This document shows positions 2,149 through 53,479 of a stretch of DNA of 64,000 nucleotides, one piece after another (positions within the stretch are counted from its first letter, which is position 1; each line of letters starts with the position of its first letter). The notes under the pieces are model-generated. The model saw nothing but the letters and a program-made list of their open reading frames with translations. It had not been told where the DNA came from and made no database searches. The translations under genes were made by a program, and so were the position numbers. The stretch is from Artemia franciscana (Eukaryota > Arthropoda > Branchiopoda > Anostraca > Artemiidae), in NCBI RefSeq assembly GCF_032884065.1, contig NC_088866.1, positions 27,249,899-27,313,898 of the forward strand, in the 5' to 3' direction.

Positions 2149-4129
2149 AAAAAAAAACTCTTCTTGCTCTTGAAAAGAAACATTCCAGGGTTATTTTTAG
2201 AAAACAGCCCAAAACACTTCCCTTCCTCTCTAAGGAAGTTAAGAGGCTGATTAACCAGAAATCTAGAGCTTGGAAACAGTATATGAAGAAGAGGAACTAG
2301 GAGACCTGTCATTTTATAAGGCAGTACGGAATCGTGTAACAGATTCTGTAAAAAAAACTGAAATCTACCTACGAGGAAATATTAGCTTCTGAGATCAAGT
2401 TAAACCCAAAATCTTTTTGGAGACATCTCTCTTCTAAAAACCCAAATCATCATACTATTCCTGACCTTGTTGACCACAGTGTACTACACTCATCTCCAAT
2501 AGATAAGGCTGACATTCAAAATGCACAATTTGCTTTTGCCTTTACCCAAAATTCAGGTACCTCCTCACCAGATCCTCCATCGTATGAAGTGCTTTTCCCT
2601 ATGCCTGATCTGTCAGTAAATGAAGTAATGATTTTCAATAGCCTTGAGAAGCTTGATGTAAATAAGTCAAAGGGACCAGACAGTGTTCATCCACGTCTTC
2701 TTAAGGAGTGTCAAAAAGCTCTCAGCTACCCCCTGTGCATCCTGTTCCGCTTATCTCTTCAAAATGGGAAACTACCGCATGATTGGAAAACATCTTATAT
2801 AACCCCAAACCATAAAAAAGGGAAAAAGAGACTCAGCCGAAAAATTACCATCCTATAAGCATCACCTCTGCAGTTGTTAAGGTGCTTGAGAGATTTCTTA
2901 ATAAAGCTCTAATTGAACATCTTGAGGTCAATAATATCCTTTCCACATCACAACATGGATTCAGATCTGGTAGATCTGTGGACACTAACCTTATCCAAAC
3001 ATATGAATTAGTGACTACACTGCTTGATAAGGGTTTTCCTGTCGACATGATTCTTTTTGATCTGTCCAAAGCATTCGACAAAGTTTGTCATGAATTCCTC
3101 ATAATCAAATTGAGGGCCGCAGGTGTCAACAAAGGTATTGTACAGTGGATTATGGGCTTCCTTTCTGAAAGATCACAGAGTGTCAGAGTTTTTGATTTGC
3201 AAGGAACTCCTCAATTCTCTTCTCCTACAACTGTATTAAGTGGCGTGCCCCAGGGCACTATTCTTGGACCAACACTTTTGAACTTCTATGTTAACGAACT
3301 ACCCACCCTTCTTTCAAATCTTATTACCCTTTATACTGATGACTCAAAACTAGTTGGAAAAGCGGCTACTCCCTCTGACCAGCAATAAATTCAAACAGAT
3401 CTTGATAGTCTAGGAAGATGGGCTAGCATGTGGCTTCTGACTTTCAATGCTGACAAATGCCATGTAATCCATTTTGGCAAACATAACAAGCATCATAAGT
3501 ATTTCCTTCAAGACAACTTCCTTTCTGCTGTTTCCAATTAAAGAGATCTTGGGGTTATTGTAGATCGCCAATTAAAGTTTAGCAGCCATGCTAAGTCTGT
3601 TTCATCTTCTGCAAATAAAACCCTTGGTATCATAAAAGGAAGCATCTCCAGCTGACAACCTAGAGTTCTTATGAAGTTATATAAGGTGCTTGTACATCCA
3701 TGCCTGGAGGTTGGAATGTCATTGGCAGCCCCTTCCTTTAAAAAATATAAGAAGTTGCTTGAGGATGTCCAGCGTTGTGCCACTAAGATGGTTATCAACA
3801 TGAATAAATTTCCATACAAAGAAAGACTATATTGTTTGAAGCTGCCAATGCTGACATATCAACAGAAAAGGGGTGACATTATTTTAACCAAAAAAGTCCT
3901 CTCTAAAAATACCCTTCCTGGTCTCTTTGCACAGCCCTTGCATTCTGGTACTAGAGGACATTCTTTGAAGCTCTCCATGTAGTGTTCCACGAGTAGACTC
4001 TTCTGCTCTCTGAAGAAACAGTTTCTGCTACTTCAATGGGACATGTTCAAGTCCCACCTTGATAGGGAATGGCTCTGCCAGGAGTTCCTTTACAATTGGG
4101 AAGGTGCAGAGTCCTCCACAAGAGTCTAA
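2149..4129 (+). pseudogene. CR1-like LINE ORF2, reverse transcriptase and C-terminus (broken)
   Basis: The linker at 2149-2588 has stops and shifts. RT fingers are at 2589-2830 (KSKGPDSVHPRLLKE, then HDWKTSYITPNHKKGKK). A frameshift at about 2825-2835 moves the frame to PISITSAVVKVLERFL, then QHGFRSGRSVDTNL, FDLSKAFDKV (catalytic Asp), SGVPQGTILGP and LYTDDSKL (catalytic Asp-Asp, with Thr where Ala or Val is usual). Stops follow near 3386, 3540, 3655 and 3980. The frame at 3671-4129 gives the thumb and C-terminal tail typical of CR1/Rex/Daphne elements (GVIVDRQLKFSSHAKSV, then LHSGTRGHSLKL, ending SSTRV). The element is almost full length but cannot make an intact protein. Confidence 0.88.
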
Positions 4130-4881: not shown

Positions 4882-6217
4882 GGTAAAATTCTAGTCCATT
4901 GACTTCTTACTATCTTGGAAAGTTGTTGGGCTAGAGAATTGAAACTTTCAGGGATGTGTCTACAGGCTAAAGTATATCCCGGGAAGTTATTTTGAGATCC
5001 CTAACTATACCTCTTCCCCCTCCTCTGTATAACGCAGTTTTTTGTGCATTACAGCTTATATTTTGGTCAAATTTGATCCTATATTACTATTAAAAATGTA
5101 AATCCTTGCTTACCTTAAAAAAATTCAACTTTTCACTGTTTTTTAAGCTACTATATTCCATAATTAGTTTACCAGCATTGAAAAACAATTATTACCTTTT
5201 ATGGTATAGTTCAAAATGGAATGCAGGCATTTAAACGCATCTCCTGTTTGAACTCTTATCTTTAAAGGGCATTTGACAGGGGCAATACAGATAAGACTTT
5301 GAACTTTTAAGGGGCTTCTCACTCAAAATTATGATTCGTTGCTGCAATTGGGTAAGGTTTATGTTATATGTATGTCAATAGCATTTATTTTGTTAATCAT
5401 AACAGCATAGAGAAAGTCAATTTCTTCAAGAAGGCCCAATAATGATTCTTAGAAACCTGAAGAGAGGCGAAACAGAAATTTAGTGGGAAAAATAAGCACA
5501 AGTCCTAAATGCGTGATTGACATAACCGTAACAGATACACTCTCTTTGGGTGAGTTTTTTTTTAGGGGGGGGGGTTAATTTGAAAAAAATTAGAAAGATA
5601 TATTTGTAACTTACGAATGGGTGATCAGATCTTAATGAAGTTTGATATTTAGAAGGATCTAGTGCTTCAGAGCTCTTATTTTAAATCCCAACCAGATCCA
5701 GTAACATTGAGGGGAGTTGGATGAGGAAAACAGAAATCTTGGAAGACGTGAAAATAAAGGTATCTTCATCTTCGAAATGGGTGGTCAGATCTTAATGAAA
5801 CTTGATATATAGAAAGATCATATGTCTGAGATGCTTAATATAGATGCTTATACAGAAATTACTCTGTATATGAAAGGGGTTTTTCCTCCTCAACGCCCCG
5901 CTTTTTACGCTAAAGTTTGACACTTTCTGTTAACTTTACTTTTTAAAACAGAAAAAAAATTTAGCATAAAGAGCGGGGTGGTGAGGAGGAAAAGGCCCTT
6001 TCATATAAGGAGTAATTTTTGTTCATTTTAAGTTTTAATGTTGCTCCTTACTTTCAGTTAAAAACACTTGTTTTTTTTATTTAATTTATGCCATAGTTTT
6101 ATAAATATATATTTAAAATTATCAAAATAAACCAAAAATAAGCCCTTAATAGACATTAATTACAACACAACTATCCAGAAAAGAAGTTTTACAAAGGAAA
6201 GTAAAGGACCATATCAA
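4882..6217 (+). repeat. Left arm of a giant inverted repeat (about 1.33 kb)
   Basis: This arm is the reverse complement of about 7482-8827 along its whole length. Matching landmarks include the terminus ggtaaaattctagtccattg, the tract tttgaactataccataaaag in the right arm, the segment with aagatctgaccacccatttc, an internal small palindrome (about 5853-6065), and the inner boundary near ggaaagtaaaggaccatat. The arm contains one copy of a ~290-bp monomer also found tandemly at 45100-45970. Arms enclose a 1.26-kb spacer. In single-stranded form this would make a very long hairpin. Confidence 0.85.
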
Positions 6218-7481: not shown

Positions 7482-8827
7482 AGTTTATATGGTCTTTTAC
7501 TTTCCTTTGTAAAACTTCTTGTCTGGATAGTTGTGTTGAAATTAATGTTTATTAAGGGCTTATTTTTGGTTTATTTTGATAATTTTAAATATATATTTAT
7601 GAAACTATGGTATAAATTAAATAAAAAAAACAAGTCTTTTTAACTGAGAGTAAGGAGAAACATTAAAACTTAAAATGAACAGAAATTACTCTGTATATGA
7701 AAGGGCCTTTTCCTCCTCAACACCCTGCTCTTTATGCTAAAGTTTTTTATTGTTTTAAAAAGTAAAGTTAACAGAAAGTGTCAAACTTTAGGGTAAAAAG
7801 CGGGGCATTGAGGAGGAAAAACCCCTTTCATATACAGAGTAATTTCTGTATAAGCATCTATATTAAGCATCTCAGACATATGATCTTTCTATATATCAAG
7901 TTTCATTAAGATCTGACCACCCATTTCAAAGATAAAGATACCTCAATTTTCACGTCTTCCAAGATTTCTGGTTTCCCCATCCAACTCCCCTCAATGTCAC
8001 TGGATCTGGTTGGGATTTAAAATAAGAGCTCTGAAGCACAAGATCCTTCTAAATATTAAACTTCATTAAGATCTGATCACCCATTTGTAAGTTACAAATA
8101 CATCTTTCTAATTTTTTTTCAAATTAACCCCCCCCCCAAAAAAAAAAAAACTCACCCAAAGAGAGCATATCTGTTACAGTTATGTCAATCATGTATTTAG
8201 GACTTGTGCTTATTTTTCCCACTAAATTTCTGTTTTGCCTCTCTTCAGGTTTCTAAGAATCATTATTGGGCCTTCTTGAAGAAATTGACTTTCTCTATGC
8301 TGTTATGATTTACAAAATAAATGCTATTGACACACATATAACATAAACCTTACCCAATTGTAGCAACAGATCATAATTTTGAGTGAGAAGCCCCTTAAAA
8401 GTTTTAAGTCTTATCTGTATTACCCGTCAAAAGCCCTTTAAAGATAAGACTTTCAAACAGGGGATGCATTTAAATGCCTGCATTCCATTTTGAACTATAC
8501 CATAAAAGGCAATAATTGTTTTTCAATGCTGGTGAACTAATTATGGAATATAGGCTAGTAGCTCAAAAAACAGTGAAAAGTTGAATTTTTCAAAAGTAAG
8601 TAAGGATTTACACTTTTAATAGTAATATAGGATCAAATTTGACCAAAATATAAGATGTAATGCACAAAAAACTGCATTATATAGAGGAGGGGGAAGGGGT
8701 ATAGTTAGGGATCTCAAAATAACTTCCCATGATATACTTTAGCCTGTAGAAACATCCCTGAAAGTTTCAATTCTCTAGCCCAACAATTTTCCAAGATAGC
8801 AAGAAGTCAATGGACTAGAATTTTACC
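7482..8827 (-). repeat. Right arm of the giant inverted repeat
   Basis: Inverted partner of 4882-6217, ending in ggactagaattttacc, the inverse of the left terminus. It carries the second copy of the small palindrome (about 7620-7860) and one 290-bp-type monomer (about 7900-8230). The flanks are cattagtt (4874-4881) and ctttagtc (8829-8836), an imperfect 8-bp pair. This fits insertion of the inner element into the older family B copy with a mutated target duplication. Confidence 0.83.
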
Positions 8828-8919: not shown

Positions 8920-9404
8920 AACTTAAGTACAACTTGCAGACCAATTTATCCTAGGCTATCTCAAAATTTCAAATTTCAACTTTGAGTCAAAACATTTTTA
9001 AGTCACCTTTTTAAATCTTTTAAACACATTCAAAGATCACCTTTATAAAACTTGTACCATAAGCAAAATCTCTTTTTTTGTGCTTATTGATTTATTATTT
9101 ATATCAATTGGCCAGAAACTTACTTTGAACCAGCTTAGGCTAAATATTTTTATTAGAGAATTAGCTGACACTCATTACTTAAAAAAGTCTCCTTTCACCT
9201 ATCTAGTAATTTCTAGCGTATGAATTCATTCATACAGAAGCATAAAATGTACCTATTATGTAACTTCAGCTTAAAGGACAAAATACGATTTTGTTGTAGT
9301 TTTGAAAAGATTCTAACGTTTTCAAGATTCAAATCATATTGCGAAATGCCTAGTTACTATTTCTGTCAGAAATTTTATCCGGGTTCAACGTGGCTTTTTT
9401 GCTT

Positions 9405-11148
9405 CAAATTACATAAAAAAAACTAGTTTTTCTAACTGAAATAAGGAGCGACATTAAAACTTAAAACGAACAGAAACTACTCCGTATATGAAATGGGTTG
9501 TCCCCTCCGCAATCCCTCGCTCTTTACGCTAAAGTTTGACTCTGCCACAATTCTACTTTTTAAAACAATTAAAAGCTTTAGCGTAAAGAGCGAGGGATTG
9601 CGGAGGGGACAACCCATTTCATATACGGAGTAGTTTCTGTTCGTTTTAAGTTTTAATGACGCTCCTTACTTTCAGTTAGAAAAACTAGTTTTTTTATGTA
9701 ATTTCTGAAAGTTTTTGAATTAATGCATGTTTGATTTTGGCTCTCCACACATAAATTATTAAAACGAAATTTACATTTTAATTCCTTATTTGGCTAAATG
9801 GCTTTCTCTTAGTTCTGATCAGACGATTTTGAGAAATAAGGAATGGAGAAGGAGGCCTAGTTGCCATGCAATTTTTCGGTTACACAAAAAGGCAACTATA
9901 AATTTTAATTTTTAACGAATTTTTTTATTAGTAAAAAATATATGTAACTTAAGAATTAATTTACGTAACAAACTTTTATATTCTTAAATTTTTATTCTGT
10001 ATATGAGGGGGTTTGTACCCTCGGTAACACCTCGCTCTTTACACTAAATCGTAAGTTTTGTGCCGATTCTTTAAGAATGACCCCTGAATCACAAAGGCCG
10101 TAGAATAAATAGTTGAAATTACTAAAAATACTATAGCATAAAGAGCGAGGTATTTATCTCCTCCTAAATACCTCGCTCTTTATGCTAAAGTATTTTTAGA
10201 ACCCCTCATATGCGTAATAATCTCTGTTCGTTTTAAGTTTCAATACTACTCCTTGCTTTCAATTGAAAAAGCTTTTCCATGTTTAATTTTTCATTGTTTT
10301 TTTTATAGTAATTTTAGAAAATCCGGCGCCCTTTTCATTGAATTTCTGTTCTCCCATGACATATTTCTCCAGTGAAAGATCCTCCCACATAGCCCCCTCT
10401 TTTCAACCCCACCCCCAAAACCAAAAAAATCCCCTGAAAAGGACTGTACACTTCCCAATAACCATTATTATATGTAAACACTGGTCGAAGTTTGTAACTT
10501 GCAGCCCCTCCCCCAGGGACTGTGGGGGAGTAAGTCATTCCCAAAGACATAGTTATTATGGTTTTTGACTATGCGGAACAAAATGGCTGTCTCAAAATTT
10601 TGATCTGTTGACTTTGGAGAAAAATGAGCGTGGGAGGGGGCCTAGGTGCCCTCCAATTTTTTCGGTCACTTAAAAAGGGCACTAGAACTTTTCATTTCCG
10701 TTAGAATGAGCCCTTTTGCAACATTCTAGGACCACTTGGTCGATACGATGACCCCTGGGAAAAAAAAACAAAAAAAAACAAACAAATAAACACGCACCCG
10801 TGATTTGTCTTCTGGCAAAAAAATACGAAATTCCACATTTTTGTAGAAAGGAGCTTGAAAATTTCGCTATAGGGTTCTCTGATAAGCTGAATGCGATGGT
10901 GTGATTTTTGTTAAGATTGTGTGACTTTTAGAGGGTGTTTTCGCCTATTTTCTAAAAGAAGACAAATTTTCTCAGGCTCGTAACTTTTGATGCCAAAGAC
11001 CAAATTTGATGAAACTTATATGTTTAAAATCAGCATAAAAATCCAATTCTTTTGATGTATATTTTAGCATCAAAATTCTATTATTTAGAGTTTCGTTTAC
11101 TATTGAGCCGGGTCGCTCCTTACTACAGTTTGTTACCACGAACTGTTT
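9405..11148 (+). mobile_element. Family A composite element, fullest copy
   Basis: Module order: a palindrome of about 290 bp at 9415-9705 (arms gtaaggagcgacattaaaac ... and their inverse, loop near 9555-9570); a middle module (atgcatgtttgattttgg ... ggcctagttgcc) at 9710-9990; a second palindrome of about 275 bp at 9999-10275 (tacctcgctctttatgctaaag and its inverse); a body from 10326 (gcgcccttttcattgaattt ... gactgtgggggagtaagtca ... gagccgggtcgctccttact); and the terminus acgaactgtttga at about 11145. The same order occurs at 21478-22915 and inverted at 53495-55010. It has no coding capacity and is a non-autonomous foldback-type element. Confidence 0.75.
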
Positions 11149-11187
11149 GAAAGAAAATAATTCGGTATTTCGGGGCTTCTGACATTA

Positions 11188-11406
11188 TTACTCCTTTGCG
11201 GAAGTTAGGCTCAAAATTGGAAAACGATTATATTTTTTCTCTGGGCCCCTTCCACCTCTTAGTTCATTTATTTTCCCGTTAGTTTTCACCTGTTTTCGCT
11301 TTATAGTTGTGTTATCTCTTAGCAGTTCTTTCGTTAGTTGAGTTATGGTCGTGGTATATATGTTTAATCGCTCGTATAGTTGTGTTATTTTCAAATTATA
11401 CTCCAT
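11188..11406 (-). other. 72-codon ORF in the duplicated spacer, copy 1 (unrecognised)
   Basis: The ORF starts with ATG at 11406 on the minus strand. It encodes a Lys/Thr/Asn-rich, probably helical peptide beginning MEYNLKITQLYERLN. The identical 72 residues recur at 12358-12576, but this reflects the very recent 1,170-bp duplication and not selection. Two base differences between the spacers (for example attcatttatt versus attcgtttatt in the regions read) do not break the frame. I see no domain, and it may not be a gene. Confidence 0.2.
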
Positions 11407-12357
11407 AATAGAGAGGCTCCGAACACCCAGGATTGTATATTAAGCTCTGAATTTGACGTTTTTTTCTAACCTGACCCGATTCGTCCTGCGCCCTGCGCCC
11501 TTTTCATTGAATTTTTCTTCCCCTATGACATATCTCTCCAAGGAAAGATCCTCCCACATAGCCCCCTCCCCTCAACCCTACCCCCAAAACCAAAAAAATC
11601 CCCCTGAAAACGTCTGTACACTTCCCAATAACCATTATTATATGTAAACACTGGTCGAAGTTTGTAACTTGCAGCCCCTCCCCCAGGGACTGTGGGGGAG
11701 TAAGTCATTCCCAAAGACATAGTTATTATGGTTTTTGACTATGCGGAACAAAATGGCTGTCTCAAAATTTTGATCTGTTGACTTTGGAGAAAAATGAGCG
11801 TGGGAGGGGGCCTAGGTGCCCTCCAATTTTTTCGGTCACTTAAAAAGGGCACTAGAACTTTTCATTTCCGTTAGAATGAGCCCTTTTGCAACATTCTAGG
11901 ACCACTTGGTCGATACGATGACCCCTGGGAAAAAAAAACAAAAAAAAACAAACAAATAAACACGCACCCGTGATTTGTCTTCTGGCAAAAAAATACGAAA
12001 TTCCACATTTTTGTAGAAAGGAGCTTGAAAATTTCGCTATAGGGTTCTCTGATAAGCTGAATGCGATGGTGTGATTTTTGTTAAGATTGTGTGACTTTTA
12101 GAGGGTGTTTTCCCCTATTTTCTAAAAGAAGACAAATTTTCTCAGGCTCGTAACTTTTGATGCCAAAGACCAAATTTGATGAAACTTATATGTTTAAAAT
12201 CAGCATAAAAATCCAATTCTTTTGATGTATATTTTAGCATCAAAATTCTATTATTTAGAGTTTCGTTTACTATTGAGCCGGGTCGCTCCTTACTACAGTT
12301 TGTTACCACGAACTGTTTGAAAGAAAATAATTCGGTATTTCGGGGCTTCTGACGTTA

Positions 12358-12576
12358 TTACTCCTTTGCGGAAGTTAGGCTCAAAATTGGAAAACGATTA
12401 TATTTTTTCTCTGGGCCCCTTCCACCTCTTAGTTCGTTTATTTTCCCGTTAGTTTTCACCTGTTTTCGCTTTATAGTTGTGTTATCTCTTAGCAGTTCTT
12501 TCGTTAGTTGAGTTATGGTCGTGGTATATATGTTTAATCGCTCGTATAGTTGTGTTATTTTCAAATTATACTCCAT
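12358..12576 (-). other. 72-codon ORF in the duplicated spacer, copy 2 (unrecognised)
   Basis: Second copy of the ORF at 11188-11406, exactly 1,170 bp downstream, with an identical predicted peptide. No family is recognised. Its presence follows from the tandem duplication. Confidence 0.2.
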
Positions 12577-13390
12577 AATAGAGAGGCTCCGAACACCCAG
12601 GATTGTATATTAAGCTCTGAATTTGACGTTTTTTTCTAACCTGACCCGATTCGTCCTGCGCCCTGCGCCCTTTTCATTGAATTTTTCTTCCCCCATGACA
12701 TATCTCTCCAAGGAAAGATCCTCCCACATAGCCCCCTCCCCTCAACCCTACCCCCAAAACCAAAAAAATCCCCCTGAAAACGTCTGTACACTTCCCAATA
12801 ACCATTATTATATGTAAACACTGGTCGAATTTTGTAACTTGCAGCCCCTCCCCCAGGGACTGTGGGGGAGTAAGTCATCCCCAAAGACATAGTTATCATG
12901 GTTGTCGACTATGCTGAACAAAATGGATATCTCAAAATTTTGATCCGTTGACTTTGGGAAAAAAATGAGCGTGGGAGGGGGCCTAGATGCCCTCCAAATT
13001 TTTTGGTTACTTAAAAAGGGCACTAGAAATTTTCATTTCCGTTAGAATGAGCCCTCTTGCGACATTCTAGTACCACTTGGTCGACACGATGACCCCTGGG
13101 GAAATGAAAAAAAAACAAACAAACAAATAAACACGCACCCGTGATTTGTCTTCTAGCAAAAAATACGAAATTAGGCAAATAAGGCAAAATTTAGGCAAAA
13201 TTAGATAAGGCAAATTTTCTCAGGCTCGTAACTTTTGATGGGTAAGACTAAACTTGATGAAACTTATATATTTATAATCAGCATTAAAATGCGATTCTTT
13301 TGATATAGCTATTAATATCAAAATTCAATTTTTTAGAGTTTTGGTTACAATTGAGCCGGATCGCTCCTTACTACAGTTCGTTACCACGAA

Positions 13391-13900
13391 ATTTTTGACA
13401 ATGAGACCGTTCGAGTTCAACCACTGGGTGTGGTTTAGCTGAACCACTGTTTTCGCGTGAAACAATGACAAACCAAGTTATAATGAAAGTGTTTCGTATG
13501 AAACAACTGACTGGTTGAGACTTTGGTTTAACCAAAACTGTCATTATCAAATAATTTAACAAAACTGTCAAAACAATAGTAACAAATAAACTGACATTAT
13601 TTTTATACAATCCTCATAAGGACTTATGCTTATTTACCTCTCACTCAATCAGACGATCTTTCTTGGCTTATTCTACAATTTGTCAAGGCTTGATGCCCAC
13701 AACTACATGATTTTAATTCAAAATCAACTGACCATAAAAGTTCCACCGTTTATAATCATTGCCTGGACTTTTTAGACGTAAATTTCAAAAATAAGAATTT
13801 GTAGGCTATAAATAAGAGTTATAACTAACAATTAGAATTTGAGGCATGTAAAAGCAAGTTTTGATTTATTTTTTTCATTTTAGGCCTATCTGGATAAATG
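13391..13900. other. Non-coding interval with a dispersed repeat
   Basis: No gene is seen. Bases 13610-13740 (caatcctcataagg ... tcactcaatcagacgatctt ... ggcttgatgcccacaactac) resemble 63360-63485 and, more weakly, 54005-54110. This is a repeat that tends to lie beside family A copies. Confidence 0.5.
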
Positions 13901-13919
13901 TTGGGTAATATCCTACAAT

Positions 13920-14545
13920 TTGATTCACATAGGCCTAAGACGTTTCAGTTCCAAAAGGGCAAAAAATGGATGTGCAAAATATTTAGGAATAATAGTAGAT
14001 GAAAATCTTTCTTTCCTTCCTCACATCCATGCTGTAGAATTAAAGTTTTTAAGGAATCTGGTTATCATGAAGAAACTGAAGCACACATTCCCACGTAAAA
14101 CCCTCTTCTCTACAATGCACTCATGAAACCCCACTTACATTATTGCGCAATGGTAAGGCAGTCAACGTTCAAATCCCATCTGAAAAAACTGGATTCCATC
14201 CACGAGAATGCCTTGAAGATCATTAAACACAGAGAATATTATCTCTCGCTGAAATCGCTGTTTAAGCCTTCCTGCTTGGTTTTTGCTTTCAGATTCCTCT
14301 CTGGCTTTCTTCCACCGCCTTTTAGGAATCTATTCCGTTTGTTATCTGAACAGTGTCTTCCAATTACAAGACTATCTGCTATCTGCACAGATCTATATTC
14401 AACATACGCCAAGAGTGAGGTCAGATTTTTCGCCTGATATCGTCTGTGCTAAAGCTTACAATACCCTACCACTTGAACTGAGAGGTAGGAGCTCCCTTGG
14501 TTCTTTCAAAAAGAGAATAAAAGATTATCTTGTTTTGAACTAGTT
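13920..14545 (+). pseudogene. CR1/L2-like LINE RT C-terminal fragment
   Basis: The first frame (13920-14126) gives CAKYLGIIVDENLSFLPHIH, the 'YLG...D..L.F..H' motif downstream of the RT active site. A second frame (14123-14437) gives MKPHLHYCAMV and ENALKIIKHRE. A third (14283-14543) gives RVRSDFSPDIVCAKAYNTLP, then LELRGRSSLGSFKKRIKDYL and a stop. This is the conserved C-terminal block of L2/CR1-type ORF2 ('AWNSLP..lR...SL..FK..L...L'). Three overlapping frames mean at least two frameshifts. No catalytic RT motifs remain, so this is a 5'-truncated copy. An untranslated tail follows to about 14870. Confidence 0.8.
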
Positions 14546-14880
14546 TAATTTAAATAAAAATTCTAAATAGAAAAGTGGTTTTAACCTTTATTCAGGTTTT
14601 TTGTGTGGGGATTGGAGTGGTTTTCTCCTGTATTAAGAGGCTGGGACTTGTAAGTATGGTTTTGTTGGTAAGGGCCATGGCTGTATCAAGGAGTGGAGGG
14701 GGAGCCATAATGTGTATTTATTTTTGAGGTGATAAGGGACTCAGCATGCATTTTTTGCATAGAGATTAGAGATTATGTATGTCATGACTGTTATATATTT
14801 TTTTTTTAATAAACCCGATTGAACTTTAAAATTAGATGTGCATAAACACATTAAAAAAAACAGCAATGGTTAGTTTACAT
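14546..14880 (+). repeat. 3' untranslated tail of the L2/CR1-like fragment
   Basis: Non-coding sequence after the ORF2 stop includes gtaagggccatggctgtatc and ends in a T-run followed by aataaacccgattgaacttt near 14810-14835, a plausible polyadenylation-type end. No other gene is seen. Confidence 0.45.
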
Positions 14881-15019
14881 ATATAATATATGCTATGGTG
14901 ATTGCTAATCGACCATTTCCTGTGTCGCCGTCGTCATTTATATATCCCCCTGTGCCCCCGGCGTCTTCCCTCTAGCATATGGTTCTGTGGAAGAAATAGG
15001 GAATTTCATACCTATAACA

Positions 15020-15581
15020 GAAGAGTGATCCAATGTTTTAAGTGCCAAAAAAATATGGTCATATCCAAAAGGACTGCCATGCCAACCAACCAATCTGCTT
15101 GCAATGTGCAGGGAAGCATTCATCAGCAGAATGTCATCTTAAGAATAACCAAGTCACTACCAACAAAGACATGCATAAATGTGCCAATTGTCTTGGAAAT
15201 CATTCTTCAACTTCACCAGCCTGTCAAATTAGAGTGAAAAATAAAGAGATTCTGAATGTGGCTCAAAAATATCAAGTTAGCTTTAAAAGAGCTCAAGTTA
15301 TGTACAGAAGTTATGCCCAAGCAGTTCATAGTAGTGCATTAAAACCTGAAAGAACCAATGTAAATAGAATATGGACAGACACCATAGACTCGGTGAAACG
15401 TCAAACTATAACAGACACAGTGAATAAAATCTTGATTGCATTGGCTCTATCCCCTGAAGTGCTTTCAATAGGCTCAGCTCCAATTGCAGAAAGAGTGGAG
15501 AAGATATGTGAATTTATGGATAAACTCAATTTGACAACAGTTGACACCAGTTTCATAAGAGATCAGTGTGCTAACAAATGA
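15020..15581 (+). pseudogene. I-like LINE ORF1 (gag-like, three CCHC zinc knuckles), partial
   Basis: Three knuckles are visible. The first (CFKCQK ... YGHIQKDC, about 15030-15075) is split by a one-base change in an A-run near 15045-15050. The second is CLQCAGKHSSAEC and the third CANCLGNHSSTSPAC. A basic and helical C-terminal half follows (QKYQVSFKRAQVMYRSYAQA). This is the ORF1 layout of I/Jockey-group elements, where the protein binds element RNA. The N-terminal gag domain upstream of 15000 is not recognisable. The ORF ends at 15581 in the overlap atga with the ORF2 start, typical of stop/restart translation. Confidence 0.85.
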
Positions 15582-16588
15582 CTTTAAATCTAAAAATACT
15601 ATCATGGAATGCCAGATCACTTGTGAAAGTTAATAAGGACCTTCTTGTGCAGTTTTGTTTGGAAAATCAAATAGATATCTTTTGTATCCAAGAGACATTC
15701 CTTAAACCTTTTATAAAGACACAGTTTCATGGTTATAGGGTCATACGACAAGACAGAACAGATCGTGACAAAGGGGGAATCATTATTGGAGTGAGAAATC
15801 ACATTCGGTTTAATCAACAATGGGTTAATTTAAGTCAAGGAAGAGCCAAGATAATAGGATGCATAATGTTTATAGATCGCCAGAAGAAAATAAATATTTT
15901 CAATATTTACAACCCTGATGGAAGTGAAAACAATTTAAGAGAAACATTTGAACAAATGATGCATAGTGTACCTAGTCGAGAATTAATAATAGCTGTAGGA
16001 GACTTTAATGCCCACAGTGAGAGTTGGTGCACATGTGGCCGATCCAACAATGCTGGAAGAGATATTGAAGATTTTCTTATGAATAATAATGACCTATGCC
16101 TTTTAACCCCAAAAGATTTACCTACCCACCTTAACCATAATACTGGACAATACAGCACCATAGACCTAGTGTTCTCTTCCCCACATATTGCTCCTACCAC
16201 AAAGGTGACATCTTTAAGGAATACAATACTATATAGTGACCATCTTCCAGTGATGAATGAGTTAAATGGCTGTAATAATATACAAGCCAATAACATAGCA
16301 CATAAGTTCAAATTGAAGAAGACTGATTGGAAAACTTTCTTAACTGCATTAGAAAATGTCCATATTGAGGAGCAGTTAAAGGACGTGTCTTCATCAGAAA
16401 AAAAGATTAAGATATTTCAAACGGCGTTAATGGATGTTGTGGATAAAGTTGTTCCCAAAATTAGTACACACAAATTGAATCACAAATTCACTAAGTGGTG
16501 GAATGAAACATGCACCAAAGCGAAACATGACCTTAAAGATGCGAAGTCCAATTATGAACGCTTTCCTACCTTTCATGGATATGTATAG
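15578..16588 (+). pseudogene. I-like LINE ORF2, endonuclease
   Basis: The ATG at 15578 overlaps the ORF1 stop by four bases (atga). A complete EEP endonuclease domain follows: ILSWNARSL (metal-binding Asn), IDIFCIQETFL (catalytic Glu), GGIIIGVRN, INIFNIYNP, AVGDFNAHSESW (catalytic Asp/Asn), YSTIDLVFSS and YSDHLPVM (Asp-His). After it come about 100 residues leading towards the RT, ending at a stop at about 16586. The endonuclease frame itself has no internal stop, which suggests a relatively young copy. Confidence 0.9.
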
Positions 16589-17059: not shown

Positions 17060-18150
17060 GTGAGAAGAAATGTGCGTTCATTGAAATACTTGAAAAAGCT
17101 TTGGACATCAGATCACAACCACCCATTTAAATCTACGATACTTAAAAGAAAAAGACTGTGGATTTCTTCAAAGAAACAGCATGGAATTATTAAAGCTTTG
17201 CATTTGGCAGAAAATTTAGGATTACAGGTAAATTTAAACCTAGCACTGGAAGTACCCAATCTAAATATCACGCCAATATGGGCCATTCAAAAAGTTCCAT
17301 GCTTTTGTGATTTTGAAAAATGGGATGGATTGGACTATAATCAATCATTCACAATGGAGAAAAGAATGACCTATCCAGAAGCCATGGACGGCTTTACTGA
17401 TGCTTCTAAAAGTGACAAGGTCGGAGCTGCGTTTTGGATACCAATGTGGAATGTGAAAGAACTTTACCGTCTCCATTTTCGACGCTGAAGTGTTTGCTAT
17501 ACGACAAGCAGTATCGTATCTATATAAAAAATTACAACGCGGGGATCAAGTTAGAATATGTACAGACTCTAAAAGTGCTGTTTCCTGTTTAAATGAATTC
17601 AGTGATGGAGCGAATCAATCAAGAGAAGTGATTTCATGCTTTGTAGCCATGCAAGAACTGCTTTCTAAAGGAATAAAGCTTTCGCTTCATTGGATACCTG
17701 GTCACAAGAAAATCCAGGGTAATGAACAAGCTGATTTAGCAGCAAAAATGGCCGCCAGTGCAGACATACAAATAATACAAACAACGACACCAACAATAGT
17801 ATTCCAAATAGAAGACATAATACAGCAGATAAAACAGTTTAGCTTTGAAGAAAATAGAAATCTCTCTGGAAATCTTTTGATTACAAAGAAGAACAGAAGG
17901 AAATTCGAAAATAAGTTATATGAAAGTTTATCAAGAGAAGAAGGAAAAATTGCGTCCGCACAGAATGTTACAGAACAGACATTAGAAGGTTTATGAGAGA
18001 ACATCGAATAAAACTATGTGAAGAATTACTCGGTGGAGCATTAACTGATGAACAATCAGTTGAAATTATAAATTTAGTTTGTGAATTTTTGAGATTGATT
18101 GATAGAAAAAGGACGTTGTAAACTTTTCGCAGCGAATTGTAAAAATTCAA
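17060..18150 (+). pseudogene. I-like LINE ORF2, RNase H domain and tail
   Basis: RNase H type I is readable in two frames. The first ends with MDGFTDASKS (first Asp) at 17388-17415 and shifts near 17475-17490. In the second, DAEVFAIRQAV (Glu) is followed by RICTDSKSAV (second Asp) and LHWIPGHKKIQGNEQADLAA (His and last Asp). All four acidic residues are present. The domain removes element RNA from RNA/DNA hybrids and separates I-group LINEs from CR1 and RTE. A lysine-rich tail ends at 17996, and a non-coding 3' end follows. Confidence 0.88.
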
Positions 18151-21477: not shown

Positions 21478-22915
21478 TTAAATGAAAAAACAAGTTTTTT
21501 TAACTGAAAGTGAGGAGCGACATTAAAACCTAAAATGAACAGAAATTACTCCGTATATGAAATGGGTCGTCCCTCCTCAAGGCCTTGCTCTTTACGCTAA
21601 AGTTTTTAATTGTTTTAGAAAGTAGAATTGTGGCAAAGAGTCAAACTTTAGCGTAAAGAGCGAAGGATTGCGGAGGAGACAACCCATTTCATATACGGAG
21701 TAATTTCTGTTCATTTTAAGTTTTAGTGTCGCTCCTTACTTTTAGTTGAAAAAAACTAGTGTTTTTTATTTAATTTCTGAACTTTTTTGAATTAATGCAT
21801 GTTTGATTTTGGGTCTCCGCACAAAAATTATTAAAATGAAATTTGCACATTAATTCTTTTTTGGCTAAATGGCTTTCTCTTAGTTTTGATCAGACGATTT
21901 TGAGAAATAAGGGGTGAGGAAGGAGGCCTAGTTGCCCTCCAATTTTTCGGTTACATAAAAAGGCAACTAGAACTTTTAATTTTTAACGAATTTTTTATTA
22001 GTAGAAAATACGCGTAACTTAAGAATTAACTTACGTAACAATCTTTTATATTCTTATATTTTTATTATGTATATGAGTGGGTTTGTCCCCTCGTCAATAC
22101 CTCGCTCTTTACACTAAATCTTAAGTTTTGTCCCAATTCTGTAAGAATGAGCCCTGAATCAGAAAGGCCGTAGAATAAATAGTTGAAATTACTAAAAATG
22201 CTTTAGCATAAAGAGCGAGGTATTTATCTCTTCCTAAATACTTCGCTCTTTATGCTAAAGTATTTTTAGAACCTCTGATATGCGTAATAATCTCTGTTCA
22301 TTTTAGGTTTTAATGCTACTGCTTTCTTTAAATTGAAAAACTTTTCATGTTCATTTTTTCATTGTTTTTTTGTAGTAATGCTAGAAAATCCTACGCCCTT
22401 TTAATTGTATTTCTCTTCCCCCATGACACATTCCTCCGAGGGAAGATCCTCCCAAATAGTCCCCTCCCCTCAAGCCCATCCCCAAAACCAAAAAATCCAC
22501 CTGAAAACGTCTGTACACTTCCCAATAACCGTTACTGTATGTAAACACTGGTCAAAGTTTGTAACTTGCAGCCCCTCTCCCAGGGACTGTGGGGGAGTAA
22601 GTCATGCCCAAAGACATAGTTATTATGGTTTTAGACTATGCGAAACAAAATGGCTATCTTAAAATTTTGATCCGTTGACTTTGGAAAAAAATAAGTGTAG
22701 GAGGGGGCCTAGGTGCCCTCCAATATTTTGGTCACTTTAAAAGGGCACTTGAAATTTTCATTTCCGTTAGAATCAGCCCTCTTGTGACATTCTAGAACCA
22801 TTTGGTCGGTACGATGACCCCTGGGGAAAAGAAAAAAAAGAGAAAAAAAACACACACCCGTGATCTGTCTTCTGGCAAAAAATACGAAATTCTACATTTT
22901 TGTAGATATGAGCTT
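21478..22915 (+). mobile_element. Family A composite element, 3'-truncated copy
   Basis: Same module order as at 9405-11148: first palindrome 21478-21785 (accttgctctttacgctaaag-type arms), middle module 21785-22065, second palindrome 22070-22335, body from about 22390 (gactgtgggggagtaagtca near 22585). It stops abruptly near 22915 after gtagatatgagcttgaaat, without the distal terminus. There it meets the minus-strand LINE RT, so it either inserted into that LINE or was cut by it. Open frames in the body are copies of those in the 10335 region and are not genes. Confidence 0.72.
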
Positions 22916-22920
22916 GAAAT

Positions 22921-24110
22921 ATCTTAAGATATCTCTTAGGAAAATGTACTTCAACTTTCTTAAAATGCCAACATTCCTAGCGAGTTCAAGACTAATATAA
23001 TCTATATGTTTTCAAAAACTAACCCATTCATCAGTTAAAACTCCTAGATAATTTGTACAGTTTATTCTTCAAATAATCATATCAGCAAAATTAAGTCTAT
23101 CTATCCAAGGGTAATAATTTGACCTCCTACCATACAATAAAAAGCAAGATTTACTATAATTCAAATTTAACTTATTAAGCTTCATCCACTCTTGTACAAA
23201 CTCCAGACAAGAACTACTGCGACTCAACAGCTGAATTCATGTTTGTGCAGCCACGGTTAAATAAGTGTCATCTGCAAAGCTGGGGACAATTACTTTTTCC
23301 CCTTCGCATCCAAAATCAAGATCATACGAAATCATATTAAAAGCTCTGCATAAATCTTTTATGAAAACTGGAAATAATAGGGGGCCAAGAACAGATCCTT
23401 GAGATACTGCAAATTTAAAATAACTGACTAAAGAAATATTATTTTCTAGTTTTGTATATTGATATCTTTCGTTTGAAAACAAGGAAAGTAATTCAAGAAA
23501 TGATCCTCTAAAACCACAATTTTTTTAATTTGACATTTAGTATAAAATGATAAACGCAGTCAAAAGCTTTTACAATATAAAAAATAATAAACAGAAGCGA
23601 CTTTCATACCTTTATCCAACACATCACTAGCAAAACTTGTCAAAAATAAAACAACATGCTCAGTAGATAAAGCCCTTCAAAAATCAAACTGATTTGGATT
23701 AAAAAATGACTTACTCTCGAAAATTCAACCGTTTTTTTAACTATTAATTTTTCAAACAATCTTGATACTACCATTAATAAAGAAATGGGCCTACAATTTC
23801 CTAGTACATTTTTATCCCTATCCTTATAAACAGGAATAACTTTTGCAATTTTAAAACAACTTGGAAACACTCCAGTCCAAAAACGTTCATTAGATAAGTA
23901 CAGTAAATAACATAAAATAACAGGGTAAATACACTTTAAAGTTTTAACTGCTACCAAATTAGAACCAAAAGCTCCAATTTTCATATTATTCAATGTTTCA
24001 GAAAGCTCATAAGCATTAATTGGCTTCAAATATGCTGAAACACCACCTGCATTCAATAATTATTTTTGAAAACTATCTTCATGCTCAGAAAATGCTTCAT
24101 GCTATGAAAA
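22921..24110 (-). pseudogene. CR1/L2-like LINE reverse transcriptase (broken)
   Basis: On the minus strand, from 24056 down, come KIGAFGSNLVAVKTLKCIYP, CFKIAKVIPVYKDRD and GNCRPISLLMVVSRLFEKL (RT fingers). A frameshifted middle follows at 23640-23482. Then VSQGSVLGPLLF (RT motif B; Val-Ser where Gly-Val-Pro is usual) and VPSFADDTYLTV (catalytic Asp-Asp). From about 23230 to 22930 are fragments EWMKLNKLNLNYSKSCFLLY and CTNYLGVLTDEW. The end is lost at the family A junction (22915). Orientation is opposite to the debris at 18600-21250, so the two were either inverted relative to each other or are separate copies. Confidence 0.82.
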
Positions 24111-45099: not shown

Positions 45100-45970
45100 A
45101 ACTCCCCCAAAGAGAGCAGATACAGTCCTATCACATCAATCATGTATCTACAACATTTTCTAACTCTATCCACTATGTTTCATTCCGATCTCTCCACTCT
45201 AAGCGTTATCCAAGATTTCTGGTTTTCTCGTCCAACTCCCACCAATGTCACCAGATCAGGCCGGGATTTAAAATAAGATCTCTGAGACATGAGTTTCTTC
45301 TAAATATCAATTTTCATTAAGATCCGATCACCTGTTCTTAAGTTAAAAATACCTCAATTTTTCTATTTCTTCCGAATTAACATCCCCTCCAACTCCTTCA
45401 AAGGGGGCGGGTTCAGTCTGTTTGTGTCAATCACGTATCTAGTACTTGTGCTTATTCTTTCCTCCAAGTTTCATCCCGATCCCTCCACTCTAAGCGTTTT
45501 CCAAGATTTTAGGTCTCCCCCCCAACTCCCCCAATGTCACCAAATCTGGTCGGGATTTAAAATAAGAGATCTGAGGTACGAGGTCCTTCTAAATATGAAA
45601 TTTCATTAGCATCCGATCGCTCTTTCGTAAGCTAAAAATACCTCATTTTTCAAATTTTTCAGAATTAGCCTTCCCCCCAATTCCCCCAAAGAGAGCGAAT
45701 CCATTCCGGTTATGTAAATCTCGTATCTAGGACTTTTTCTTGTTTTCCCATTAAGTTTCATCCCGATCCCTCCACTCTAAGCGTTTTCCCAGATTTTATG
45801 TTTCCCCCTCCAACTCCTCTCAATGTCACCAGATTTGATCAGAATTTAAAACGAGAGTTCTGTGACACATTATCGTTCTAAAGATCAAATTTCATTAAGA
45901 TCCGATCGCCCATTCTTAAGTTAAAAATACCTGATTTTCCAATTTTTCCGAATTAATCGTCCCCCCACCC
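45100..45970 (+). repeat. ~290-bp tandem monomer array, three copies (family D internal)
   Basis: Landmarks ccctccactctaagcgtttt at about 45190, 45482 and 45771, and attaagatccgatc near 45318, 45605 and 45897, give periods of about 290 bp. Single copies occur in the arms of the giant inverted repeat (about 5500-5780 inverted, 7900-8230) and inverted at 39180-39310. Non-coding. Short ORFs inside are not genes. Confidence 0.8.
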
Positions 45971-46170
45971 CCCCTCCCCCAGATGGACGAATCAGGGAAG
46001 TGACTGTTTCCAATGTGATCTGGTCCCTGATACGCCTACCAAATTTCATCGTCCTAGTTTATTTGGAAGTGCCTAAACTAGCAAAACCTGGACCGACAGA
46101 CGGACAGATAGACAGACAGACCGACAGAATTGGCGATGCTATATGTCACTTGGTAAATACCAAGTGCCAT
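45971..46170 (+). mobile_element. Family D terminus with hairpin
   Basis: After a C-rich tract come gatctggtccctgatacgcc, tttggaagtgcctaaactag, a gacagacagac microsatellite, gcgatgctatatg and the hairpin cacttggtaaataccaagtg (46147-46166; 9-bp arms, 2-base loop). The mirrored copy is at 38941-39180. A related hairpin is at 6705-6724. Internal tandem repeats plus a terminal hairpin recall Helitron/HINE elements, but no ATC..CTRR ends were verified. Confidence 0.55.
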
Positions 46171-50827: not shown

Positions 50828-53479
50828 TCAACCTTCTTTTTTTCCTCTTTTTATTTCTTGAGACAAGCTTGAGTCCTTCGGTTGGTGGGCTGTTGTACAT
50901 TTTACAGACACAGGTTCTCTGATTTCCATATTCCTTGCAACCCTTGAGTCTAAAATTTCAGGAAGTAAGGATTCATTCCAGAAGGCTTCAAGCTTCGGAA
51001 ATATTTTTTCCCAGTATTCTTTCGATCGGTGAACTGTAATTATTTCCCAATCCTCAATAGAGTTATAAACTATTAAGTGGCATACCATTTTATCCAGTAT
51101 CTCGAGTTGGCCTTGTATCTGGGCGAAATACCTGTGATTTTTTTTTTAGCTGAAGACCTTCACTGGATAATTCAAGAAAAAATGCTTTAACTAAATTTTT
51201 TGACTGGGCCACATCATAAATGGTTTTGAACTCTGGTATATTATGCACAGTTTTATCTCTATAGGTGTGCCATTAGGGAGCAGTCCATCTACAGATGCAG
51301 CAAGATACTGATACTGTGGATGCACACTGAGTCCTATTTGATCTCCCTTTACGACTTTTAAGTTGAATTTGTTTTCATATGCTTCTAGTGCCACTACTTC
51401 TAAATCTAAGCCCTTTTTCATTAGGGCAGAGCAGAATCTAGGTCCCAAGTTTCGAATTTGCTTAACAATTGGGGCAACTCTGGTGCTGTTTTTTCTGGTT
51501 GCAATTCTGTGGAAGTAACTACTAGTTATTCTCTTAGATCTTTCTTCAACCCAAGTGTCATTTTTGGATTGGCCCTTGGTACTGTTGAACAAACAGCTTA
51601 TACTGGCAAAATCCAATTTTGAATACTCGTCAGTATATTTTTGTATGGCCAAATTCATTTCATCAGAAGTCATGTCTGGCTTATTGCAATTTGGTCCATA
51701 GTCGCGATTACCAAAGTTATAGTTTCTATTTTTTAACTTAGCAGCGTGTTTTCCTCCAAGAGCACTATAATAACTGGTCAAATTACGTTTAGATATTACA
51801 CGGAGTTTAGCCGTTTTATTACAATATTTTTTTTGTTACGCTAGAAGGACTAAACCCAAAAATATTTTTCCAAGCTAATTGATGCCATTTTGGACCTGAA
51901 TTATAAGCAAGACTTGCTCCATGAACTCTTGCATGATATGAACCTCGTTTAGACCGGCTTATTTGCTTTCCTCCGGTGAATTTAGCAACAACTGACATGT
52001 AGCTTTCAGCTAAGTTTGTAGTTGCGTCATTTCCAAGCTGCTCTGCTTTTCGACACACAATATCGACCTCTGTCATAACATCTTCAAACACGTGCAGGGG
52101 AAAATTATTCCACCGATCTTCTATTTTACTACTCACGGTCAATTCAGCAATCTTAGGACAACCAGAATCACATTTTGTGTGGTTTCCGAAAACATGGTAC
52201 GGACCTCTTTTTAACAAGATTTTCAATTCTTCTGCTGTTCCACTATTTTCAGAATTTATTTTTATCGCACCCCTTAAATTTTTTGTCAGTTGCTGGATAT
52301 TTCCTCGGGGAAGACATTTTGTGTACAAACCTTTTTTATTTTTGCACAAATTATATAGATGGGCTGTATAGTTTTTGTGACGTGATTTGCACATTCATGT
52401 TTCCGTATGTTGGAACCGTAGGAAACACTTTGTTTTAGCTTATAAAAAACACTAGAATCACCGTCCCGTCCCCGATATACTCTAAAAACTGTGCTCCGTG
52501 CATCTCCTCACTGGAACGAAAGCCTTCAACTAGAATATCTGTTTCCATGCTCCTTGGATTTCCGTTATAATTCAGAAAACAGAAATGATCTTTGGGAATT
52601 ACTTTGGCGTTTGCAGAAGAAAAACATATATAACAGTATTTATTTTTTATGCCAACATATAACAGTTTTTTCATAAATGCATCTATGATAACTGCAACAC
52701 ATCCTTTGGCCGAATAATCGTGTCATTTGCTACGCTTATTCCAGCCTCCATCACATATCTCTTTTGTCCAGTATGAGTCCTCCTTATACCTATCATCATG
52801 AATGGCTGATTTTAAGGCCTCTCGTCCATTTTCTAGCAAAATTTCTGATAAAAAATTCATCCAAGCATTACCAAGCTGCTTTTCAATACGGGAATAAACT
52901 ATTCGTGATATTGGTTTCACTCCAAGCACCCCGAAGAATTCACACAGTGTAGAATACCCTCCTCCACTACCCTTGGCTCCCCAAACAGCCTTCGAATTCA
53001 AGCAGCCTTTAAGACTTGATTTTTTTTTCGGAAAAAGCAACCTGTGTCTGGTCCGTAAAATTTGAAAGATATTCTTTTACGCTTGTTGCTGGACATTCTG
53101 GTTCACCTTTAATCCTCTTTTCCCAGTTACACTTATTACACTTAACTTTCAGTTCAGTTTTCAGGCCTTTCTTTTCTAATTGCTTTATAATCAATTTTCC
53201 GTGATCGCAACTGATTTTGTGTCTGAATAATGAAATTACTTCAGCAAGGAAATACCTTAGATTCACAATGCAGTTTCCATCTGGAATTCCAGATAAGTCT
53301 ATGTCAGTATTCGTATCGGGGCAATCAACACCGCAAGAACCACCACCCTTTCCCAATTTATTTGAATCGTCTATGAGAGGATTCGCTGAAAATTCTTCTG
53401 AAATTTTTGATCCATTTGACAAATTATCTTTATCTTGTTCTCCAAGCAGCACCTTTCTAAAAAAAATGAAAAGAACCAT
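50828..53479 (-). pseudogene. MULE-type transposase fused to YqaJ-like nuclease, frameshifted
   Basis: Reads from 53479 down to 50828. N-terminal frame (53479-53009): Cys/His-rich region (RHKISCDHGK, then KCNKCNWEKRI). Next frame (53040-52723): KAVWGAKGSGGGYSTLCEFF, GVLGVKPISRIVYSRIEKQL, ending in CDGGWNKRSK (probable first catalytic Asp). Next (52674-52435): VGIKNKYCYICFSSANAK, RSMETDILVEGFRSSEEMHG and EYIGDG (second Asp). Next (52394-51819): a Cys/His block HVFGNHTKCDSGCPK and NLAESYMSVVAKFTGGKQIS. Next (51781-51191): YqaJ exonuclease part (WVEERSKRITSSYFHRIATR, then LAASVDGLLPNGTPIEIK). Last (51088-50828): its C-terminal helices after YFAQIQGQLEIL. The order matches arthropod proteins with a Mutator-like transposase domain and YqaJ domain. 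At least five shifts or stops make it a pseudogene, but all modules are present. Confidence 0.82.

Follow-up and report, generated by a model that had tools for sequence, protein, structure and literature searches.

A dispersed repeat of Artemia franciscana has very probably gained a third internal unit at one locus by an unequal exchange between its own two direct repeats, some time after it was inserted there. The copy under study, W, lies in a window of 64,000 nucleotides (the whole stretch of DNA that was analysed; NC_088866.1, 27,249,899-27,313,898), where it occupies positions 9408..13398 of the plus strand, as do all of its parts given below, a length of ~3,990 bp delimited by ends that are common to copies at other loci. 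On the reading that we favour, a two-body element, LEFT-B1-spacer-B2, was inserted first, and a later exchange in situ between B1 and B2 would have produced the order now seen: B1, spacer, a B2/B1 hybrid, spacer and B2.

A single switch in the middle body

Behind the LEFT segment (9408..10325), three bodies are found at 10326-11150, 11495-12320 and 12665-13398, separated by spacer 1 (11151..11494, delimited by comparison with the spacers of other loci) and spacer 2 (12321..12664). The period is 1170 bp, and the first-pass annotation, which had described a 1,170-bp tandem duplication with three units, gave coordinates that proved to be exact. Base-by-base alignment, which that annotation had proposed as the way to look for one switch point, shows that the middle body follows unit 3 up to 11613 and unit 1 from 11660; the last difference between units 1 and 2 lies at 10443/11613, the first between units 3 and 2 at 12830/11660, and the 46 bases between these limits are the same in all three units. 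The alignment thus reproduces the interval of about 46 bp (11614-11659) to which the switch had been assigned. Units 1 and 3 differ at 182 informative columns, a count inflated by the scoring of each gap column singly, and unit 2 fits a single switch at 181 of them: it has the state of unit 3 in the first 15 columns and that of unit 1 in 166 of the remaining 167, the one other column (10943) fitting neither unit. If the columns are assumed to be independent, the probability that 15 and 166 columns in random order would show a single switch is ~10^-21. The 46-bp tract that holds the switch is the second-longest identical tract, next to one of 48 bp.

The crossover interval of 46 bp (11614..11659) is closed by a base, the T at 12830, that is private to unit 3, with G in 16/16 B1 and 18/18 B2 bodies at other loci. 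Should this T be a later mutation than the exchange, the interval would extend over 95 bp, 11614-11708. The duplicated segment can accordingly be drawn as a first copy at 10444..11613, consisting of the B1 remainder, spacer 1 and the B2 start, with exact ends that are uncertain within the crossover interval, and a second copy at 11614..12783, as aligned to the first. These copies differ at four sites (10943/12113, 11184/12354, 11266/12436 and 11524/12694). As judged from the rest of the family, it is copy 1 that has the derived base at 10943, 11266 and 11524, whereas at 12354 it is copy 2. The earlier description of unit 2 as a start identical to unit 3 joined to a remainder identical to unit 1 therefore holds as a pattern, whereas "identical" is only nearly true.

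Four differences are also what allelic variation could give, and we considered whether two haplotypes of a two-body copy might have been joined inside a body during assembly, with a false duplication and a false switch as the result. The three-body count of W comes from one assembly, whose likely source was made from a pool of 14 females and then purged of haplotigs, according to the available text of PMC11492255. The same text reports a 20-kb size-selected library, which should span a 4-kb element, and an assembly QV of 47.62; moreover, a 46-bp identical tract would be short for an overlap-based misjoin, and the corresponding copies in the second three-body element described below, L014, have diverged further (~14 substitutions and a 7-bp indel). 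On this evidence we regard an assembly artefact as unlikely.

The two-body form and a probable in-place expansion

Markers for the spacer (a 40-mer, with at most 2 mismatches) number 1,519 genome-wide, and we fetched 20 loci of 9.5 kb around the best spacer matches, which were thus chosen by their likeness to the spacer in the window. Nineteen of the 20 have the form body / 344-bp spacer / body, and the twentieth, L014, has three bodies. All or part of LEFT (~920 bp) precedes the first body in 18 of the 19 two-body loci, and in 19 of all 20, the exception being L024. Five two-body copies that were measured are 2,907-2,924 bp long, and some of the fetched copies are truncated or carry deletions (e.g., L020, L023 and L024). 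First bodies are 88-96% like unit 1 and second bodies 87-91%, except for an 81% piece in L009, while the two types of body resemble each other at ~88-90%. To type bodies we used 53 sites that consistently separate the first bodies (B1; 16 of them) from the second bodies (B2; 18), with at least three quarters agreeing within each type. The B1 and B2 rows of the other loci are nearly uniform, and within this set a switch from B2 to B1 is seen only in unit 2 of W and in the second body of L014. Eleven further bodies in the window and the fetched loci (e.g., 22394-23300) were also typed; they are mosaic at the 53 sites and were rejected as clean B1, clean B2 or clean recombinant bodies.

In W itself, unit 1 (10326..11150) is of B1 type at 48 of the 53 sites, with 3 B2-like and 2 matching neither type, and the chimeric unit 2 (11495..12320) carries B2 alleles at the 8 sites up to 11613 and equals unit 1 at the other 45. 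Unit 3 (12665..13398) is mainly of B2 type (35 of its 42 lettered sites, with 5 B1-like, 2 neither and 11 gapped) and has a private deletion: it lacks ~92 bp, at window positions 13173-13206, that are present in other second bodies, and some of its B1-like sites adjoin this deletion. Since unit 1 types as B1, unit 2 as B2 then B1, and unit 3 mainly as B2, the two parental bodies appear to be built-in repeats of one dispersed element, and the comparison of loci supports the ordinary two-body element LEFT-B1-spacer-B2 (~2.9 kb) as the ancestral state. The first-pass annotation had read the locus as a-b, c-b, c-d from unequal crossing-over between neighbouring bodies of one family. That reading gains support from the two-body elements elsewhere, which supply the a-b, c-d state; the bodies that would have exchanged are fixed direct repeats of one dispersed element rather than chance neighbours.

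A hybrid body can also arise by gene conversion, here in an older array, B1-spacer-B2-spacer-B2, that was partly overwritten from unit 1, and a small number of B1-like sites do occur in unit 3. This would need a prior duplication as well as a tract that runs from the switch through the remainder of the body and the spacer, both of which one exchange accounts for, and a non-hybrid triple was not seen among the 40 candidates scored in the search described below. We consider this history extremely unlikely and retain the single exchange.

The duplicated sequence itself bears on where and when the exchange took place. The two spacers of W differ at 2 of 344 sites, as compared with a median of 9/344 (2.6%) over all pairs of 23 aligned spacers. 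Three variants are common to both W spacers and absent from 21/21 others, and two more are each present in one other spacer. A 70-mer that includes three of the W spacer variants (absent from 21, 20 and 21 of the 21 others, respectively) matches just two places in the genome at no more than 1 mismatch, namely the two W spacers. The body part of the duplicated segment adds five variants that are common to both copies and absent from 57 other bodies, and one site that is unshared. Because the 70-mer matches only these two spacers, the duplication most likely arose in place, after insertion. Counting strictly private variants, 8 are common to both copies (over 1051 bp, the B2-start part being left out) and 4 are unshared (over 1170 bp), and the exchange would therefore fall late in the life of the W insertion. 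The event had been called very recent, which stands as a relative date only, from copies that are 4/1170 (0.34%) apart as against the family's spacer median.

The same variants weigh against the idea that the triple was made during rolling-circle transposition, by slippage or as a concatemer, and was inserted as such. Tandem repeats are known in rolling-circle elements, as stated in the available part of PMC7492417, but the variants of the W spacers match nowhere else and are most simply explained as mutations gained after insertion, no sibling triple was found among the 40 candidates scored, and the switch points of W and L014 differ. Transposition of a ready-made triple is thus very unlikely, and expansion in place is the reading that we carry forward.

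A second triple and the proposed mechanism of exchange

At L014, on C11, the first body is B1, the second is B2 then B1, and the third is B2. The switch falls near body offset 510-527, as compared with 118-165 in W, and the L014 spacers carry private variants of their own in common. These differences in switch point and private variants speak for two independent events. Leaving aside single-base gaps and gaps at the ends, ~14 substitutions and one 7-bp indel separate the L014 copies in 1,159 alignment columns, and because they have diverged further, the L014 event is probably the older. Its fit to a single switch is looser (83/88 columns), and the switch lies within ~15 bp of identity, which is short for homologous exchange. 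At the junction of spacer and B2 in L014, a 7-bp repeat is present twice in one copy and once in the other; both copies of W have it doubled.

Three-body copies look rare. Among the 40 scored of 11,043 candidates for a full spacer-body-spacer match (1514 bases), only W and L014 contain one, and the other matches span only one spacer and one body. No marker pairs 1.0-1.3 kb apart were present among the ~100 exact spacer-marker places listed (C1 and part of C2).

We propose that a non-coding repeat with the structure LEFT-B1-spacer-B2, probably a Helitron-like transposon, was inserted at this locus; that its direct repeats B1 and B2 would later have paired out of register; that an exchange would have taken place within the identical tract of 46 to 95 bp; and that the product would thereby have gained one 1170-bp period. 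Homologous unequal exchange is our candidate for the molecular route. Exchange between sister chromatids, meiotic exchange and template switching during replication would all yield this product and are indistinguishable here. The reciprocal deletion product, a single body that begins as B1 and ends as B2 without a spacer, was searched for with an in-silico single-body query, for which 40 of 9,480 candidates were scored and 19 of the 40 hits were typed in this check (L012 and L018, which are among the 21 remaining hits, had been typed earlier). In 17 of these 19 the absence of a spacer 3' of the body was the basis on which they were judged to be single-body elements, 9 of them B1-like and 8 B2-like, and none of the 17 has the structure of the deletion product. 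Most of the B2-like ones share the same three B1-like sites, and L048 and L050 are mixed at a few 5' sites, L050 having four B2-like sites and then B1. From the mixed sites in L050 and the five B1-like sites in unit 3 it follows that the wider family contains small mosaics. Either the deletion product is rare or has been lost, or it lies outside the typed and scored set of copies.

Comparable arrays have been described in other elements. In tandem arrays of LTR retrotransposons, TRIMs and Cassandra elements that share internal LTRs, one repeat and one internal region are gained, as in W (available text of PMC11899658; see also PMC7215508). The parts of PMC11899658 available name recombination between repeats on sister chromatids or homologues as one proposed cause of LTR tandems, and its authors could not decide between mechanisms. 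Unlike these arrays, W has a LEFT segment of 918 bp outside its repeats, its family leaves clean empty sites without a target duplication, and its repeats have diverged enough to let the switch be mapped. A likeness may also be drawn to Mothra, a non-autonomous Helitron of rice that is non-coding and has changed its internal repeat number in place; the changes are ascribed to unequal crossing-over or slippage in the portion of PMC4683698 at hand. In that account Mothra has blocs of several repeats, whereas W has two long diverged bodies and a crossover that can be placed within 46-95 bp. The process is thus of a known kind and its mechanism is not new, and W is a well-resolved example of it. 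What it offers is a natural record of one unequal exchange in which the ancestral state, the switch point, a relative date and an independent second case all come from one genome. A family of ~1,500 spacer copies could be used to count recombination between short, diverged direct repeats, and it could show how a dispersed element starts to become a tandem array.

The nature of the element and its surroundings

No Pfam match was found in the unit 1 body in six frames, and no ORF of at least 150 aa lies inside 9408-13398. LEFT begins with a long, near-perfect palindrome of ~300 bp (9406-9704; inverted repeats, fold z = -35), and related palindromes recur within the window, e.g., near 5852-6100 and 7614-7849. 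The 10 Rfam matches in 9000-15000 are all below gathering scores, and those at the 5' palindrome are read as chance matches to a near-perfect hairpin.

The ends of the element are sharp in the aligned copies. Joined-flank queries for 13 loci gave junction-spanning matches for 4 (L009, L019, L021 and L022), and empty sites were inspected for three: those of L009 and L022 are clean and without target-site duplication, and the six copies found for L019 have one extra base. At both clean empty sites, A is followed by T. Among 41 distinct 3' ends, two of which are internal B1 ends before a spacer, the next base is T in 27, A in 11 and C in 3. In 5 of the 6 copies tested an inverted repeat, AGTAAGGAGCGA, occupies 33-48 from the 5' end and 27-38 from the 3' end; W has an 18-base imperfect match. 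The score of the repeat was reached by 1-9 of 300 shuffles, which gives it modest support. Helentron/HINE elements are expected to have subterminal inverted repeats of 11-15 bp. The complement of the 12-bp subterminal repeat recurs near position 250, and, as read from the sequence, a palindrome precedes the 3' end. LTR retrotransposons and TRIMs have repeats at both ends and a target duplication of 4-6 bp. This class was rejected for the present element, in which LEFT lies outside the first repeat and no target duplication is seen at the clean empty sites of L009 and L022.

On balance we favour a Helitron-like element. Helitron-type Rep domains are abundant in the genome (150 scored of 7,436 candidates), and Helitrons make up 8.81% according to the available text of the likely source paper (PMC11492255). 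As far as the accounts in PMC4067079 and PMC7492417 available extend, Helentrons, HINEs and DINE-1 resemble the W family in several points: the target site is not duplicated, inverted repeats of ~12 bp lie subterminally, the 5' one has an internal complement, and a 3' palindrome and internal repeats are present. They differ from it in that the 5' subterminal repeat of the W family lies 33-37 bp in, as compared with 2-4 reported for mite HINEs, in that its insertion is apparently between A and T rather than at TT, and in its 300-bp 5' palindrome. The one Helitron copy compared as a candidate autonomous partner (L045, 8.5 kb, of the 150 listed Helitron_like_N matches) shares no ends with the element. 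Because neither of the clean empty sites has the TT target and this comparison yielded no autonomous partner, the element is not filed as a member of the Helentron/HINE group.

The two-body form may have its own origin in a transposition error. Single-body LEFT-B1 and LEFT-B2 elements are also present in the genome, and most of 16 two-body copies retain the terminal hairpin sequence of B1 unaltered (the exceptions are L010, L018 and L019), with one base changed in units 1 and 2 of W. For these reasons an origin by 3'-end bypass, of the kind described for Helraiser in the available part of PMC4778049, would fit: as a model fitted to the anatomy of the family, replication might have read through the end of B1 and 344 bp of flank and stopped at the end of a truncated B2. 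A bolder and more tentative proposal, which we hold at somewhat below even chances, is that a full B1 element was fused through its intact 3' end and 344 bp of host DNA to a 5'-truncated B2, that this rolling-circle element spread to ~1,500 copies, and that its direct repeats seed repeated independent expansions in place, as a first step from dispersed transposon to satellite array. The 3' end of the single-body element L033 has two successive copies of the terminal hairpin sequence, like a doubled terminator. No account of a non-autonomous Helitron in Artemia was found in the literature searched, in which this repeat family may be undescribed.

Other repeats and coding remnants are present in the window. 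The ORFs at 970-2148, 2882-3388, 15578-16588 and 17490-17996 encode endonuclease (PF14529), reverse transcriptase (PF00078) and RNase H (PF00075) domains and are probably the remains of non-LTR retrotransposons. On the minus strand, ORFs at 51191-53479 have a YqaJ domain (PF09588) together with matches to Mutator-like transposase that are below the curated cut-off. A tandem repeat with a 289-bp period and 3 copies is located at 45100-45974, in a stretch that is GC-richer than its surroundings.
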